This document shows, one piece after another, positions 4,512 to 14,261 of a stretch of DNA of 64,000 nucleotides. How positions within the stretch are numbered: position 1 is the first letter of the stretch; every line of letters begins with the position of its first letter. The stretch covers positions 1-64,000 of the forward strand of contig NZ_PVNB01000005.1 of the NCBI RefSeq assembly GCF_003001995.1, read 5' to 3'. The DNA comes from Orenia metallireducens (GTDB lineage: Bacteria > Bacillota > Halanaerobiia > Halobacteroidales > Halobacteroidaceae). The notes under the pieces were generated by a model. The model did no database searches. It worked only from the letters and a program-made list of their open reading frames with translations, and was not told the origin of the DNA. Both the position numbers and the translations under genes were made by a program.

Positions 4512-4565
4512 CCTAGATACCCCTTTTCTTAAATTTTATAATATATTTATTATTTCAAAAATATA

Positions 4566-4600
4566 AAATAGTGTCAAGACATATTGACTTAACACTATTT
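4566..4600 (-). terminator. terminator downstream of the AAR-like gene
   Basis: 13-bp stem (AAATAGTGTCAAG 4566-4578 with CTTAACACTATTT 4588-4600, one G-U pair), then TTATATTTTT on the minus strand. It isolates greA-lysS from the gene upstream. Confidence 0.75.
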
Positions 4601-4643
4601 ATCACACTTTAATAAATTATTATAATTCAACTTGTAAAAATTG

Positions 4644-5714
4644 TCAAGTAGAGCTAACTATTCTCCGAACTTTACTGACCTGTTGTAAAGTAACCTCCCT
4701 TTCTAGACTCCTTAAACTGGATAATCTAAATCCATGCTTATCAGCTAAATTGCTAATTTCAATTATCTTCTCTAAATCCAGCTCTGCACCTAAGCTATAA
4801 TTCTCATACCTTCCTTCTAAGGATAAAATCATAGTCTCTGCCATACAGGCATAAGATGTTCCTTTTGGAAAACCAAAGTTTAAATTAAATTCTACCTCCC
4901 CTGGAACCTCTACTATCCCTCCATCTATAACTAAAATATCATCTCTTTTAAGTGCTATCTCTTCTGCAACATCACGAGGTCTAGCAATATCACAGACTAT
5001 TGCTCCTGACTTTAATAAACTTACATCAATCAGGCTATCTACTGAACTAGATACGGTTACCACAATATCTGCTTCTGGTAATAGTTTATTTAAATCTATG
5101 CCAGTCTCCACTTGAACATTATATCCAGTTCTTAATTCATCAGCTAGCTCCTTTAATCTCTCTTCTCTTCTAGCTACCAACATTAAGTATTTATTATCTC
5201 TTGCTAATATCTTACTACAAGCCTTACCTATAGAACCAGTAGCTCCTACAATTAAGATATTACTTTTTCCCATATTGATTCCCATGATATCACTTGCTAG
5301 TCTAATTCCCTCTAATGCTGTAGCCACTGTATAACTATTACCTGTAGTTACAGGAATATTGAGGTTTTGGGCAACTGTAAGACCTTTATCCCCTACTACA
5401 GAGGTAAATGCACCTAATCCCACAATCTCTGCCCCCAACTCTTCTGCCTTTCTTCCAGCATCAATAATCTTTTCTATAACCTCTTCTGTTGGCAGTTCAA
5501 TCATCTGTCTAGCAGTTAGAGGGCAACAAACAAAGTATCCCTCCGCTTTAACCCCCTTAACTGATTCAATTCCTGTAATATGTGATGCTTTAAAAGCTGG
5601 CACTACCTTAAGCATCTTCTCTAATAACCTATCTGAGAAGAATCTAGAGACAGGAAATTTCCTTGCTATGTCACTAACATCAAGAGGGTGAATTATAAAT
5701 CCAAATTTCTTCAT
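4644..5714 (-). CDS. acyl-ACP reductase-like dehydrogenase (COG5322)
   Basis: 356 residues. The sequence follows the pattern of cyanobacterial acyl-ACP reductase (AAR) along its length. It has TTGNSYTVAT near 123-132 and a nucleotide-binding GATGSIG at 157-163. It also has SYACMAET, whose Cys290 aligns with the acyl-thioester cysteine of AAR, then SLEGRYENYSLG and a C-terminal KHGF. AAR reduces fatty acyl-ACP/CoA to aldehyde with NADPH. Firmicute homologues are usually annotated as shikimate or amino-acid dehydrogenase-like, with unknown substrate. No aldehyde-deformylating oxygenase is nearby. A conserved partner gene lies 85 bp upstream on the same strand. Confidence 0.75.
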   Translation of the reverse strand: MKKFGFIIHPLDVSDIARKFPVSRFFSDRLLEKMLKVVPAFKASHITGIESVKGVKAEGYFVCCPLTARQMIELPTEEVIEKIIDAGRKAEELGAEIVGLGAFTSVVGDKGLTVAQNLNIPVTTGNSYTVATALEGIRLASDIMGINMGKSNILIVGATGSIGKACSKILARDNKYLMLVARREERLKELADELRTGYNVQVETGIDLNKLLPEADIVVTVSSSVDSLIDVSLLKSGAIVCDIARPRDVAEEIALKRDDILVIDGGIVEVPGEVEFNLNFGFPKGTSYACMAETMILSLEGRYENYSLGAELDLEKIIEISNLADKHGFRLSSLRSLEREVTLQQVSKVRRIVSST

Positions 5715-5799
5715 TAATTTGCCTCCTTATGATCACAATTGATTAAATCTTAACTACTTATAGTTACTTTGACTCCTATACCCTCATTTCAAAATGTAG

Positions 5800-6714
5800 T
5801 TATTTGATCAAATAATCCTGATTGAACTCTTCTAGTCTTGGTTCAAAATCAATCTCACGTAATATATTCAGATAATCCGAGACCCTTATTTCATCTAATG
5901 GCTTGTCTAACAAGGTTACTAAGATTGCTTCCATTACATTGGTACCAAAAGAACGCCCTCTAAACTCTGGTGTAGTTGTAATTAATTTATTTAATCCTCT
6001 CTGCTTTAATAAGTCTATATCTGAAGTTGTGACTGTATTTGTAATTACTATTTTATTTTTCAAATTTGACGGCAAATATCTCTTTATATAATGAAAGTCT
6101 CCTGCTATAATATCAGCCCACTGATAATACTTGCTATATTTATCTCTACTCTCTTCTTGTTTATTTCCTGTAGGATATAATAGCTTAAAGGGTAATCTAC
6201 TGACAACAGGCATGATAATCTGTGCTATATTATGTAGTGCATCTAAAGACTTTAAAGGGACAGGTATACCTAATCCAAAGATTAAATCACCAATCAATAG
6301 TTCAGCTCCAATATCTTTAAGGGCTTCTGCCATTCCAAATCTATCTAAGGCACAGACCATTAAAATCTTCTTATCCTTTAAGTTGATCTTCTGATTAACA
6401 TGACGTATTGCTCTACGTTCTAAAGTATTTTTTAATCCACTACCATCAACGATAGGTGTCTTATTAATATTTTTTATGATCTTCTTAGCATCCCTTAACA
6501 GATATCTCTTCTTACCAGCATAAAGGTATAAATCTATCCCACCTAAACCAAAAGCATCTACCTTACCATCAAGATCATTAAACATCTTAATAGCCTTATC
6601 CATATCACCATCGGTACCTATCCGTTCAATAATAAACTGCTCTCCTAGTATCTCCCTTTGTACCCGATGATCTCTAGCGGAAGATCCTAAGCTTATACTT
6701 ACTACTCTTTTCAT
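5800..6714 (-). CDS. conserved protein, sometimes labelled quinate 5-dehydrogenase
   Basis: 304 residues, no signal peptide. It starts MKRVVSISLGSSARDH and has a glycine-rich segment DAFGLGGIDLYLYAG. Homologues in anaerobic Firmicutes are often auto-named quinate 5-dehydrogenase, but I see no classical Rossmann dinucleotide motif, so that name is weak. The late TTTPEFRGRSFGTNVMEA block looks like a conserved active or binding site. It lies upstream of the AAR-like gene and probably shares its transcript, so the two may act on the same metabolite. Function unknown. Confidence 0.6.
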   Translation of the reverse strand: MKRVVSISLGSSARDHRVQREILGEQFIIERIGTDGDMDKAIKMFNDLDGKVDAFGLGGIDLYLYAGKKRYLLRDAKKIIKNINKTPIVDGSGLKNTLERRAIRHVNQKINLKDKKILMVCALDRFGMAEALKDIGAELLIGDLIFGLGIPVPLKSLDALHNIAQIIMPVVSRLPFKLLYPTGNKQEESRDKYSKYYQWADIIAGDFHYIKRYLPSNLKNKIVITNTVTTSDIDLLKQRGLNKLITTTPEFRGRSFGTNVMEAILVTLLDKPLDEIRVSDYLNILREIDFEPRLEEFNQDYLIK

Positions 6715-6796
6715 CTAATTCACCTCTTGAGGTTTAAAACTAATAAATTACTCTCACTTTAATATGTGATAATGATTTTAAATTTATGTATAAAAT

Positions 6797-6830
6797 AAAA
6801 AAAAAGCTGACAATCTCTAGAATGTCAGCT
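6797..6830 (-). terminator. terminator overlapping the dusB stop codon
   Basis: Stem AGCTGACA/TGTCAGCT (6805-6812 with 6823-6830) followed on the minus strand by a long T-run. The right arm contains the dusB stop codon (6825-6827). Confidence 0.85.
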
Positions 6831-7796
6831 CAACTCTGCTTGATAATCTCTTAATATTTTATTCATCACATCTACACTCTCTGCTTGATTCAAAAGATCT
6901 TTAATTGTTGTACAGTTTTGCAACCCTTTGATATACCAACTAGCATGCTTACGCATCTCTCTAACTGCTACATATTCCCCTTTATAGTCGACTAGATTCT
7001 CTAGATGAATAATTGCAGTCTCTAGTTTCTCTACTGGACTGGGAGGAGCTAATAATTTACCAGTTTTGAGATAATGGGAAGTTCTTTTAAAAATCCATGG
7101 ATTACCTTGAGCACCTCTACCAATCATCACTCCATCACATTTTGTCTGCTTAATCATCTTTAAAGCATCCTCTGGCTTAAAGATATCGCCATTGCCGATT
7201 ACAGGTATAGTTACTGCTTCTTTAACCTGGGCTATAATCTCCCAGTCTGCCTTGCCACTGTAAAATTGGTTTCTAGTTCTCCCATGTACAGCAATAGCCT
7301 CAGCTCCATTCTCTTCAGCAATCTGGGCTACCTCTACAGCATTGATACTATCTTGGTCCCAACCTGTCCTAATCTTAACGGTAACAGGTCTACTTACCGC
7401 CTCTACCATCGACTTTACTATCTCACCTAATAACTTAGGCTCTTTCATTAAAGCAGAGCCATATCCATTCTTAACAATCTTGGGAGTAGGACATCCTACA
7501 TTCAAATCGATTATCTCTGGGTTACTCTCTTCTTCCACCTTTTTAGCAGCTTGAGCCATCACTTCAGGATCATTACCAAATACTTGGAGCGAAACTGGTC
7601 TCTCCTCTAAAGCCACCTCTAATAACTTCTCAGTCCTCTGATTCTCATAAACCAACCCATTGGCACTGACCATCTCGGTACAGACTAAGCCACATCCCAT
7701 CCCTTTAACCAGCTTTCTATATGGTAAGTCTGTAACACCTGCCATTGGTGCCAAAATAACTGGATTATCTATTTCTACATCTCCTATCTTCAACAA
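6825..7796 (-). CDS. dusB: tRNA-dihydrouridine synthase (DusB type)
   Basis: About 323 residues. An FMN TIM barrel starts with PVILAPMAGVTDLPYR. NVGCPTPKIVKNGYGSAL carries the catalytic cysteine loop, and VKIRTGWD, AVHGRTRNQFYSG and GNGDIF form FMN/tRNA contacts. It reduces uridine to dihydrouridine in tRNA. A TTG start at 7794-7796, six bases after GAGGTG, gives the family's usual N-terminus MLKIG; an upstream GTG at 7805 lies inside the ribosome-binding site. Confidence 0.93.
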   Translation of the reverse strand: MLKIGDVEIDNPVILAPMAGVTDLPYRKLVKGMGCGLVCTEMVSANGLVYENQRTEKLLEVALEERPVSLQVFGNDPEVMAQAAKKVEEESNPEIIDLNVGCPTPKIVKNGYGSALMKEPKLLGEIVKSMVEAVSRPVTVKIRTGWDQDSINAVEVAQIAEENGAEAIAVHGRTRNQFYSGKADWEIIAQVKEAVTIPVIGNGDIFKPEDALKMIKQTKCDGVMIGRGAQGNPWIFKRTSHYLKTGKLLAPPSPVEKLETAIIHLENLVDYKGEYVAVREMRKHASWYIKGLQNCTTIKDLLNQAESVDVMNKILRDYQAELS

Positions 7797-11276: not shown

Positions 11277-11729
11277 TTACTCATTCTCTTTTATAACTGT
11301 TAAAATCTCTTCTTTTGTATTGGCAGCCATCAATGCTTCTCTAAAATCTGCATGCATTAATTTACGGGATAACTGAGCCAATACTTTCAAATGCTCATCA
11401 TTCTTTCCTTCTGGAACTGCAATCATAAAGAAGATTTTTGCTGGCTGGTCATCAAAGCTCTCAAAATCAATCCCTTTCTCTGACTTAGCAAAAACTAAGG
11501 TAGGCTCTTTAACAACACCACTTTTCCCATGGGGAATTGCGACACCATTTCCTACACCAGTTGTACTTTTAGCTTCTCTGGCTAAGATTGTCTGATAAAA
11601 CTCCTCCTTAGAAGTAATTTTACCAGCAACATCTAATAAATCTACCATCTCTGCTAAAGCTTCATTTTTAGTATTATTGGCTAAATTAAGTTTGATTAAA
11701 TCTTCACTCATTAAATTACTAATTTTCAC
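11277..11729 (-). CDS. PTS fructose IIA component
   Basis: 150 residues, a PTS_IIA_2 (mannitol/fructose) domain. The phospho-histidine is in GVAIPHGKS (His67). It passes phosphate from HPr to the IIB cysteine of FruA. The start codon is GTG behind AAGGGAG. It sits 15 bp after fruK and upstream of the IIBC gene. A near-identical paralogue lies at 13809-14261; the two C-termini (LKVLAQLSRKLMHADFR) are almost the same, so the copies are recent duplicates or kept similar. Confidence 0.93.
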   Translation of the reverse strand: MKISNLMSEDLIKLNLANNTKNEALAEMVDLLDVAGKITSKEEFYQTILAREAKSTTGVGNGVAIPHGKSGVVKEPTLVFAKSEKGIDFESFDDQPAKIFFMIAVPEGKNDEHLKVLAQLSRKLMHADFREALMAANTKEEILTVIKENE

Positions 11730-13808: not shown

Positions 13809-14261
13809 CTATTCATTCTCTTTGATTACTGCCAATACTTCTTCTGCAGTGTTAGCAGCTAATAAAGCATCTCTAAAATCAGCATGCATTAATTTACGAG
13901 ATAATTGAGCCAATACTTTCAGATGTTCGTCATTCTTTCCTTCTGGAACTGCAATCATAAAGAAGATTTTTGCTGGATTATCATCGAAACTTTCAAAGTC
14001 TACTCCTGCTTCAGAATTAGCAAAAACAAGAGCAGCTTCCTTAACAACACTACTTTTCCCATGAGGAATAGCAACTCCATTACCTACACCAGTAGAGCTC
14101 TTTTCTTCTCTAGCTAAAATTGTTTGATAAAACTCTTCATTAGATGTAATCTTAGCATTCTGATCTAATACATCCACCATCTCTTGTAAAACAGCATTCT
14201 TTTCAGTATTCTCTAAACCAATTTTAATTAACTCTGGACTTAATAAACTACTAATTTTCAT
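13809..14261 (-). CDS. PTS fructose IIA component, paralogue
   Basis: 150 residues and a close relative of the IIA at 11277-11729, with the same active-site block GVAIPHGKS and nearly the same C-terminal half. It presumably phosphorylates the same FruA IIB domain because no second IIBC gene is present. It starts at ATG behind AAGGAGAGG, 13 bp after fruK2, and a terminator follows. Confidence 0.92.
   Translation of the reverse strand: MKISSLLSPELIKIGLENTEKNAVLQEMVDVLDQNAKITSNEEFYQTILAREEKSSTGVGNGVAIPHGKSSVVKEAALVFANSEAGVDFESFDDNPAKIFFMIAVPEGKNDEHLKVLAQLSRKLMHADFRDALLAANTAEEVLAVIKENE

Follow-up and report, generated by a model that had tools for sequence, protein, structure and literature searches.

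The closest described relatives of the locus analysed here are the acyl-ACP reductase (AAR) of cyanobacteria and two enzymes of pigment pathways, TamH (tambjamine) and PigE (prodigiosin). C294 is named as the active centre of cyanobacterial AAR in a review (PMC9743570). TamH, according to PMC9594044, consists of an N-terminal transaminase and a C-terminal reductase and converts aldehydes to C7-C14 amines; in vitro, a C12 acid carried on the ACP of TamA was turned into the amine with NADH, and acyl-CoA was not accepted. For PigE, PMC8341465 describes reduction of a thioester followed by transamination of the aldehyde. Its activity required cell lysate, the purified protein giving no reduction, and the authors liken the pair of activities to glutamyl-tRNA reductase and its aminomutase. 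The combined chemistry of AAR and transaminase has hitherto been described from a few such pathways.

We analysed a stretch of 64,000 nucleotides from Orenia metallireducens (hereafter the window). The first-pass annotation had proposed here a 356-residue protein with the AAR fold, Cys290 as its thioester cysteine, and the absence of a deformylating oxygenase. Its open reading frame and that of the paired gene were both confirmed at the coordinates given. When the product of the former was searched against PDB sequences, PigE (4ppm, E 4.8e-43) and cyanobacterial AAR (6jzq, E 1.5e-26) were matched, along with the further AAR entries 6jzu and 6jzz. The AlphaFold model (pLDDT 88.9, pTM 0.88) aligned with 6jzq over 327 residues (Z 36.7, rmsd 2.4, 27% identity) and with the AAR crystals overall at Z 34.6-36.7, the NADPH- and stearyl-bound 6jzy giving Z 35.0. 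After the carmabin reductase, the next fold family was that of shikimate dehydrogenase (Z 14.7). The GxxGxxG motif reads GATGSIG, and its three glycines and Cys290 were invariant in all 50 aligned AAR rows. By alignment, Cys290 falls on residue 294 of 6jzq, in agreement with its proposed part as the thioester cysteine. Because the AAR fold is matched and Cys290 lies on C294, the predicted enzyme is likely to reduce an acyl thioester and so form an aldehyde.

Among family models, the NCBIfam model for PigE (N-terminal part) gave 242.9 bits, under its cut-off, and that for cyanobacterial AAR (TIGR04058) gave 133.7 bits against a cut-off of 449.7. PF01488 scored 52.9 bits (cut-off 24.3) over residues 139-255, that is, the dinucleotide domain only. 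The source genome (4.10 Mb, 95 contigs) holds one AAR. Compared by this gene, the named organisms closest to it are Halonatronum and Natroniella, at 66-68% identity. The third proposal was likewise borne out: aldehyde deformylating oxygenase (PF11266) remained under the cut-off in all of 61 genomes, the source genome included, in a search that matched the positive control, Synechococcus elongatus.

The order of genes on the minus strand is birA-coaX-dus-PAR-AAR-greA-lysS (housekeeping names assigned by eye), where PAR is a name coined in this analysis for the gene paired with AAR; 85 nt separate the two. The coordinates of the features are collected in Table 1. The hairpin at the end of dus was found by folding energy and is not among the terminators of the pattern scan. 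A promoter scan of the window gave 13 promoter-like sites, against 11.9 expected in shuffles, and the sole site with a 12/12 score was the one ahead of greA, which presumably serves greA-lysS. Since a hairpin with a U run appears to close the dus transcript and a sigma-70 consensus precedes greA, PAR and AAR probably form a two-gene transcript unit of their own. In Caloramator (L057, L061, L076), AAR follows lysS immediately on its 3' side and adjoins neither PAR nor greA; its place by lysS thus outlives rearrangement of the locus. Elsewhere in the window, two closely similar 150-aa PTS EIIA-like genes (11277-11729 and 13809-14261, minus strand) lie near a fructose-type PTS operon (names by eye).

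Table 1. Coordinates of the features described in the text. Plain ranges refer to the window; prefixed ranges refer to other contigs or loci.
Feature	Position	Strand or place	Basis or remark
AAR-like thioester reductase, 356 aa	4644..5714	(-)	ORF; GxxGxxG 157-163; catalytic-type Cys290
PAR, conserved protein, 304 aa, two-domain Rossmann-like model	5800..6714	(-)	ORF and predicted structure
Terminator-like hairpin with U run, overlaps dus end	6795..6832	(-)	-14.3 kcal/mol, z -4.8
Sigma-70 consensus promoter, 12 of 12, TTGACA-17-TATAAT, overlaps AAR stop codon	4619..4647	(-)	pattern scan
Strong AAR-greA intergenic hairpin, a terminator or a leader structure	4556..4610	(-)	-18.3 kcal/mol, z -6.0
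Class III transaminase AT, type C, of source genome	G000:C42:19169-20398	different contig from AAR	profile match
GYFPS/AYFPS-like small protein	L128:4328-4720		
GYFPS/AYFPS-like small protein	L129:6157-6549		
GYFPS/AYFPS-like small protein	L131:6149-6541		
GYFPS/AYFPS-like small protein	L159:5464-5820		
GYFPS/AYFPS-like small protein	L172:8235-8654		

PAR, whose annotation name we take to be 'quinate 5-dehydrogenase', matched no Pfam or NCBIfam model and gave no significant PDB sequence match. Its structure was predicted with pLDDT 90.3 and pTM 0.86. The nearest solved folds (VIA-align) were AAR 6jzq (Z 13.1, 249 residues aligned) and the carmabin reductase 9e50 (Z 12.8), the whole group of AAR and carmabin reductase spanning Z 12.3-13.1, and the next group, the glutamate dehydrogenases, reached Z 10.8 at most. 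A Z of about 13 is ordinary in this superfamily, because AAR itself matches shikimate dehydrogenases at a higher value. Foldseek ranked sugar-binding proteins and dipicolinate synthase subunit A highest, at a TM of roughly 0.3-0.4, which was not informative. When the PAR and AAR profiles were compared by hhalign, the E-values were 0.12 and 0.018, not significant, and a shuffled PAR decoy scored 28.3 against AAR, compared with 24.9 for the real profile. PAR had been considered as a proven paralogue of AAR; the shikimate dehydrogenase control and the profile decoys do not permit that claim.

An alignment of 74 PAR rows contained neither the catalytic cysteine nor GxxGxxG. The expected place of the glycine motif is occupied by DRFGMAE, and the sole cysteine of the window protein, Cys121, is conserved in 36 of the rows. 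Invariant columns numbered 33, including Asp90, Lys95, Glu99, Arg125, Asp143, Asp206, Arg254, and the Thr258-Asn259 of the motif SFGTNVMEA. These residues look like a ligand site that would be PAR's own. One could guess, with low confidence, at a role of PAR in sensing or handling a ligand, which would be a metabolite either of the pathway or of the acyl donor. A plasmid search gave no match to PAR. Of 249 genomes sampled over the phylum, 186 contain PAR; a family of this breadth thus has neither a name nor a Pfam or NCBIfam model.

Conservation of the AAR-PAR link was assessed in 100 loci, a set in which at least four genomes are counted twice and one locus is the window itself. In 79 of these PAR immediately preceded a co-directional AAR (gap 0-175 nt, median 32), and AAR had no adjacent PAR in the other 21. 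AAR was called present at E < 1e-20 and weaker matches were treated as absent (27 in the 249-genome draw and four in 61 relatives). Under this threshold, 38 of the 61 relatives had both genes, 23 had neither, and no mixed case occurred. The 249 genomes, an even draw over the phylum, contained AAR and PAR together in 156, AAR only in four, PAR only in 30 and neither in 59 (160 AAR-positive, 89 AAR-negative). An AAR profile search of 28 of the 30 PAR-only genomes gave no convincing AAR; in one PAR-only genome (G196) a very diverged AAR-like gene adjoins PAR (E 7.7e-8). The other two (G169 and G211) had weak matches, E 3.8e-13 and 9.2e-18, that may be fragments. The linkage in other genomes, whose absence would have refuted the first-pass annotation, is therefore present, and the AAR-PAR module is real and conserved. 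In two loci the AAR slot after PAR holds a divergent or unmatched gene, namely a very diverged AAR of 357 aa (L126:5813-6883, 39 bits to the profile) and a 344-aa gene with no Pfam or NCBIfam match (L133:5476-6507).

A third gene, encoding an HTH protein of about 175 aa, was located 5' of PAR-AAR in 48 of the 99 loci in which AAR had been called; in 13 it immediately preceded AAR itself. A strong match to it was present in 153 of the 249 genomes, 152 of these PAR-positive; it was absent from the source genome and from the members of its family and order in the draw. Since HTH accompanies PAR in 152 of 153 genomes, including 23 of the 30 PAR-only ones, PAR and HTH (186 and 153 of 249 genomes) are the wider operon core, with AAR nested within it.

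The gene that AAR itself tracks is a class III transaminase (AT). In the source genome this AT matched the AT profile, of which it is itself a row, at E 1.5e-211. AT was called present at E 1e-140 or better, the best AT scores over the 249 genomes being bimodal. It was found in 140 of the 160 AAR-positive genomes, compared with four of the 89 AAR-negative ones. When the 36 genomes with AT-AAR fusions were left out, the corresponding figures were 104 of 124 and four of 89, with a Fisher p of 2e-34 that overstates the association because the genomes are related. Within PAR-positive genomes, AT was present in 136 of 156 with AAR and in none of the 30 without. Shared absence of AAR and AT recurs within families (G003 in family f1, G237 in f20, most of f3 and f9). 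Among 21 relatives, all 14 with a stand-alone AAR had a full-length stand-alone AT, 40-44% identical to the AT half of the fusion; three genomes lacking both AAR and PAR (G003, G013, G019) gave only weaker, ArgD-like AT matches.

At least 36 of the 249 genomes encode AT-AAR fusions (843-976 aa) whose domains are arranged as in TamH, and G239 may hold another. The three that were scanned scored 546-586 bits against the PigE model, the match falling in three stretches. Several genomes with PAR but no AAR at the dus...greA-lysS locus carry a fusion elsewhere (L101-L107, seven genomes; split in two ORFs in L103). In L176 and L177 the fusion directly follows PAR, with HTH before PAR, so that the AAR slot is taken by the fusion; in L135 the HTH gene adjoins the fusion. 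Separate AT genes also lie near AAR, 37 nt 5' of it in L159 and at a distance of up to about 11 kb in five further genomes; L160, L161 and L162 have AT on one stretch with HTH-PAR-AAR, and by coordinates G141 and G109 resemble them. In at least six genomes a diverged stand-alone AAR is retained besides the fusion. In trees, the fusions formed their own clades for both halves, and the reductase half grouped with proteobacterial fusions. The fusions thus speak for functional equivalence, and not for a fusion of these very genes, since they form a clade apart from the stand-alone AAR; judged from these trees, replacement of the separate genes by fusions seems likelier than an origin of the fusions from them. 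One apparent fusion, in L077, proved to be an antisense ORF.

The fusion query matched 2002 plasmid records, 16 of them with one place covering at least 80% of it; among these 16, the 15 matches listed were proteobacterial. On a plasmid of Leisingera thetidis (L183:8959-13146), a 1395-aa AT-AAR protein has an extra C-terminal part, and its cluster also holds genes for an adenylate-forming enzyme, pabB, outer membrane lipoprotein sorting and MMPL. An anaerobe of the same order as the source (G009) encodes an 841-aa protein (L108:6090-8612, plus strand) that has PigE's own domain order and scores 1348.7 bits on the PigE model, above the cut-off of 850; this genome has a normal PAR-AAR pair as well. 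A small protein (about 118-139 aa, GYFPS/AYFPS-like motif) is encoded repeatedly next to stand-alone PAR and next to AT or AT-AAR genes, and the one tested had no Pfam match.

Two types of AT, which differ in length and partner, were named here type P and type C. In the AT tree, type P, to which the AT adjoining AAR in L159 belongs, groups with PigE and the fusions (93/90), and type C with the E. coli putrescine aminotransferase PatA (88/81). An SRPBCC (PF03364) gene stood beside the type C AT in 10 of the 13 Halanaerobiia AT loci read; of the other three, two carry type P and one lies at a contig edge. The same neighbour was seen in L163, L164, L165 and L173, and in L164 and L165 the AT-SRPBCC pair adjoins spoIVA and a gpsA-like gene (gpsA by eye).

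SpoIVA (TIGR02836) was present in 211 of the 249 genomes. PAR occurred in 177 of these and in nine of the 38 without SpoIVA; 34 genomes had SpoIVA without PAR, and 29 had neither. The association is with a way of life, or perhaps with shared descent only. For AAR the counts were 152 with both, eight with AAR only, 59 with SpoIVA only and 30 with neither; on these counts together with those for PAR, AAR was rejected as a strict sporulation gene. PAR stands apart from AAR in, for example, G105, G255, G174, G140, G279 and G101; the neighbours of stand-alone PAR, where read, include GerMN, amidase and YkuD genes.

On the whole, we favour a two-step route to an amine, with a probability of about 0.55. 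AAR, a stand-alone NAD(P)H-dependent enzyme, would take an acyl group from acyl carrier protein or CoA onto Cys290 and release the aldehyde. This would then be converted to a primary amine, by analogy with the fused enzymes TamH and PigE, by a PLP-dependent class III transaminase whose gene lies elsewhere. PAR, usually with HTH as the wider operon core, might bind or sense a metabolite of the pathway or the acyl donor. Fold, catalytic residues, co-occurrence, fusions and gene order were computed; the direction, fatty acyl-ACP as the substrate, which amine is formed and what PAR does are what we infer. An amine is the likely end product, and the aldehyde an intermediate, because AAR tracks AT and the fusions join the two. 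The first-pass suggestion that AAR and PAR together make or use an aldehyde accordingly survives in part: the aldehyde stands, and the pair as a functional unit does not, because 30 of the 186 PAR-positive genomes lack AAR, of which 23 have the HTH gene, and because AAR tracks a transaminase located elsewhere to which fusions join it. Against the amine route count the 20 of 160 AAR-positive genomes without AT at the threshold, the four genomes with AT and no AAR, and the position of the source-genome AT, a PatA-like type C enzyme, apart from PigE and the fusions.

This last point makes a putrescine route a serious rival. AT would deaminate a diamine (putrescine, cadaverine), and AAR, run in reverse as an acylating aldehyde dehydrogenase, would yield an acyl thioester. 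Besides the tree, the best NCBIfam match of the source AT was PRK11522, a putrescine aminotransferase (534 bits, cut-off 612), and the AT profile was best on putrescine aminotransferase structures (513 bits, compared with 445 for PigE). However, it is with PigE and the fusions that type P, found next to AAR in L159, clusters; PMC9743570, PMC9594044 and PMC8341465 describe AAR, TamH and PigE, the relatives that have been characterised, in the reducing direction; and no polyamine-uptake gene was noticed by eye beside the pair in the loci read. We consider the catabolic direction unlikely. The aldehyde itself, or an alcohol made from it, could instead be the product, destined for instance for wax or for lipids of the ether or vinyl-ether type; shared ancestry would then account for the link to AT. 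AAR alone yields free aldehyde in cyanobacteria (PMC9743570), and Bacillota do make ether and vinyl-ether lipids according to PMC13274423. That paper, however, credits PlsA and Ger for ether formation in Bacillota, and the words 'aldehyde' and 'acyl-ACP reductase' are absent from its text. AT is moreover missing from every PAR-positive AAR-negative genome, and AT-AAR fusions occupy the operon slot, which leaves this alternative quite improbable.

That AAR and PAR might be two subunits of one enzyme, PAR being a degenerate paralogue that shapes or regulates the active AAR, is suggested by the AAR structures as the nearest solved folds of PAR and by the full agreement of presence and absence in the 61 relatives. 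The PAR-only genomes, the insignificant profile comparison with its higher-scoring decoys, the ordinary level of the fold match and the 33 invariant columns that suggest a site of PAR's own all argue against it, and we regard it as very improbable. Hardly credible is a shikimate or quinate 5-dehydrogenase, a reading that starts from the PF01488 match to AAR: this match spans the dinucleotide domain only, the AroE model TIGR00507 gave 24.7 bits against a cut-off of 200.2, and the fold similarity to shikimate dehydrogenase is far below that to AAR.

Returning to the amine-forming route, the AAR and AT set is widespread in anaerobic spore-forming bacteria. Both activities are predicted together in 140 of the 249 sampled genomes and the reductase adjoins core housekeeping genes; the product is therefore more likely to be a general metabolite than a rare natural product. 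A bolder proposal, which we put forward tentatively and with some doubt, is that most anaerobic spore-forming Bacillota make an undescribed long-chain or lipid-bound primary amine by a split TamH-like route (AAR and AT, to which some lineages add an SRPBCC protein of lipid-binding type encoded beside spoIVA), with PAR and HTH controlling it as a new pair of sensor and regulator. The amine prediction is made directly testable by the co-occurrence and the fusions. A search of the literature on fatty amines in Clostridia or Firmicutes, of sporulation gene surveys and of annotation names found nothing that names this gene set.

Compared with cyanobacterial SeAAR (6jzq/6jzy, TIGR04058), the window protein has in common the whole-length fold, the catalytic-type cysteine and GxxGxxG; it differs in its score far under the TIGR04058 cut-off, in the lack of an ADO, and in its partners PAR, HTH and AT. 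The carmabin reductase 'TAD' (9e4s, 9e4u, 9e4x, 9e50, 9e56) also shares the fold (Z 33.3-33.9) at about 15% identity. The protein to which it belongs bears the name amino acid adenylation domain protein, and by their titles some of these entries contain NADH and some a disulfide between cysteine and dephospho-CoA. E. coli PatA is the nearest named relative of the type C transaminase of the source genome, which falls under the family cut-off and belongs to a type with an SRPBCC neighbour in most loci read. With TamH and PigE the present set shares two activities, predicted here as a thioester reductase and a class III transaminase; the Bacillota fusions share the domain order of TamH, and the window AAR scores higher on the PigE model than on that of cyanobacterial AAR. 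In TamH and PigE, however, both activities reside in one chain, whereas the window protein is a reductase only, its AT gene lies on another contig and is PatA-like, and AAR is conserved across the phylum beside housekeeping genes. The type of reaction is thus already known; in the form predicted here its two steps are divided between separate genes, occur widely and go with a core family that has no name.
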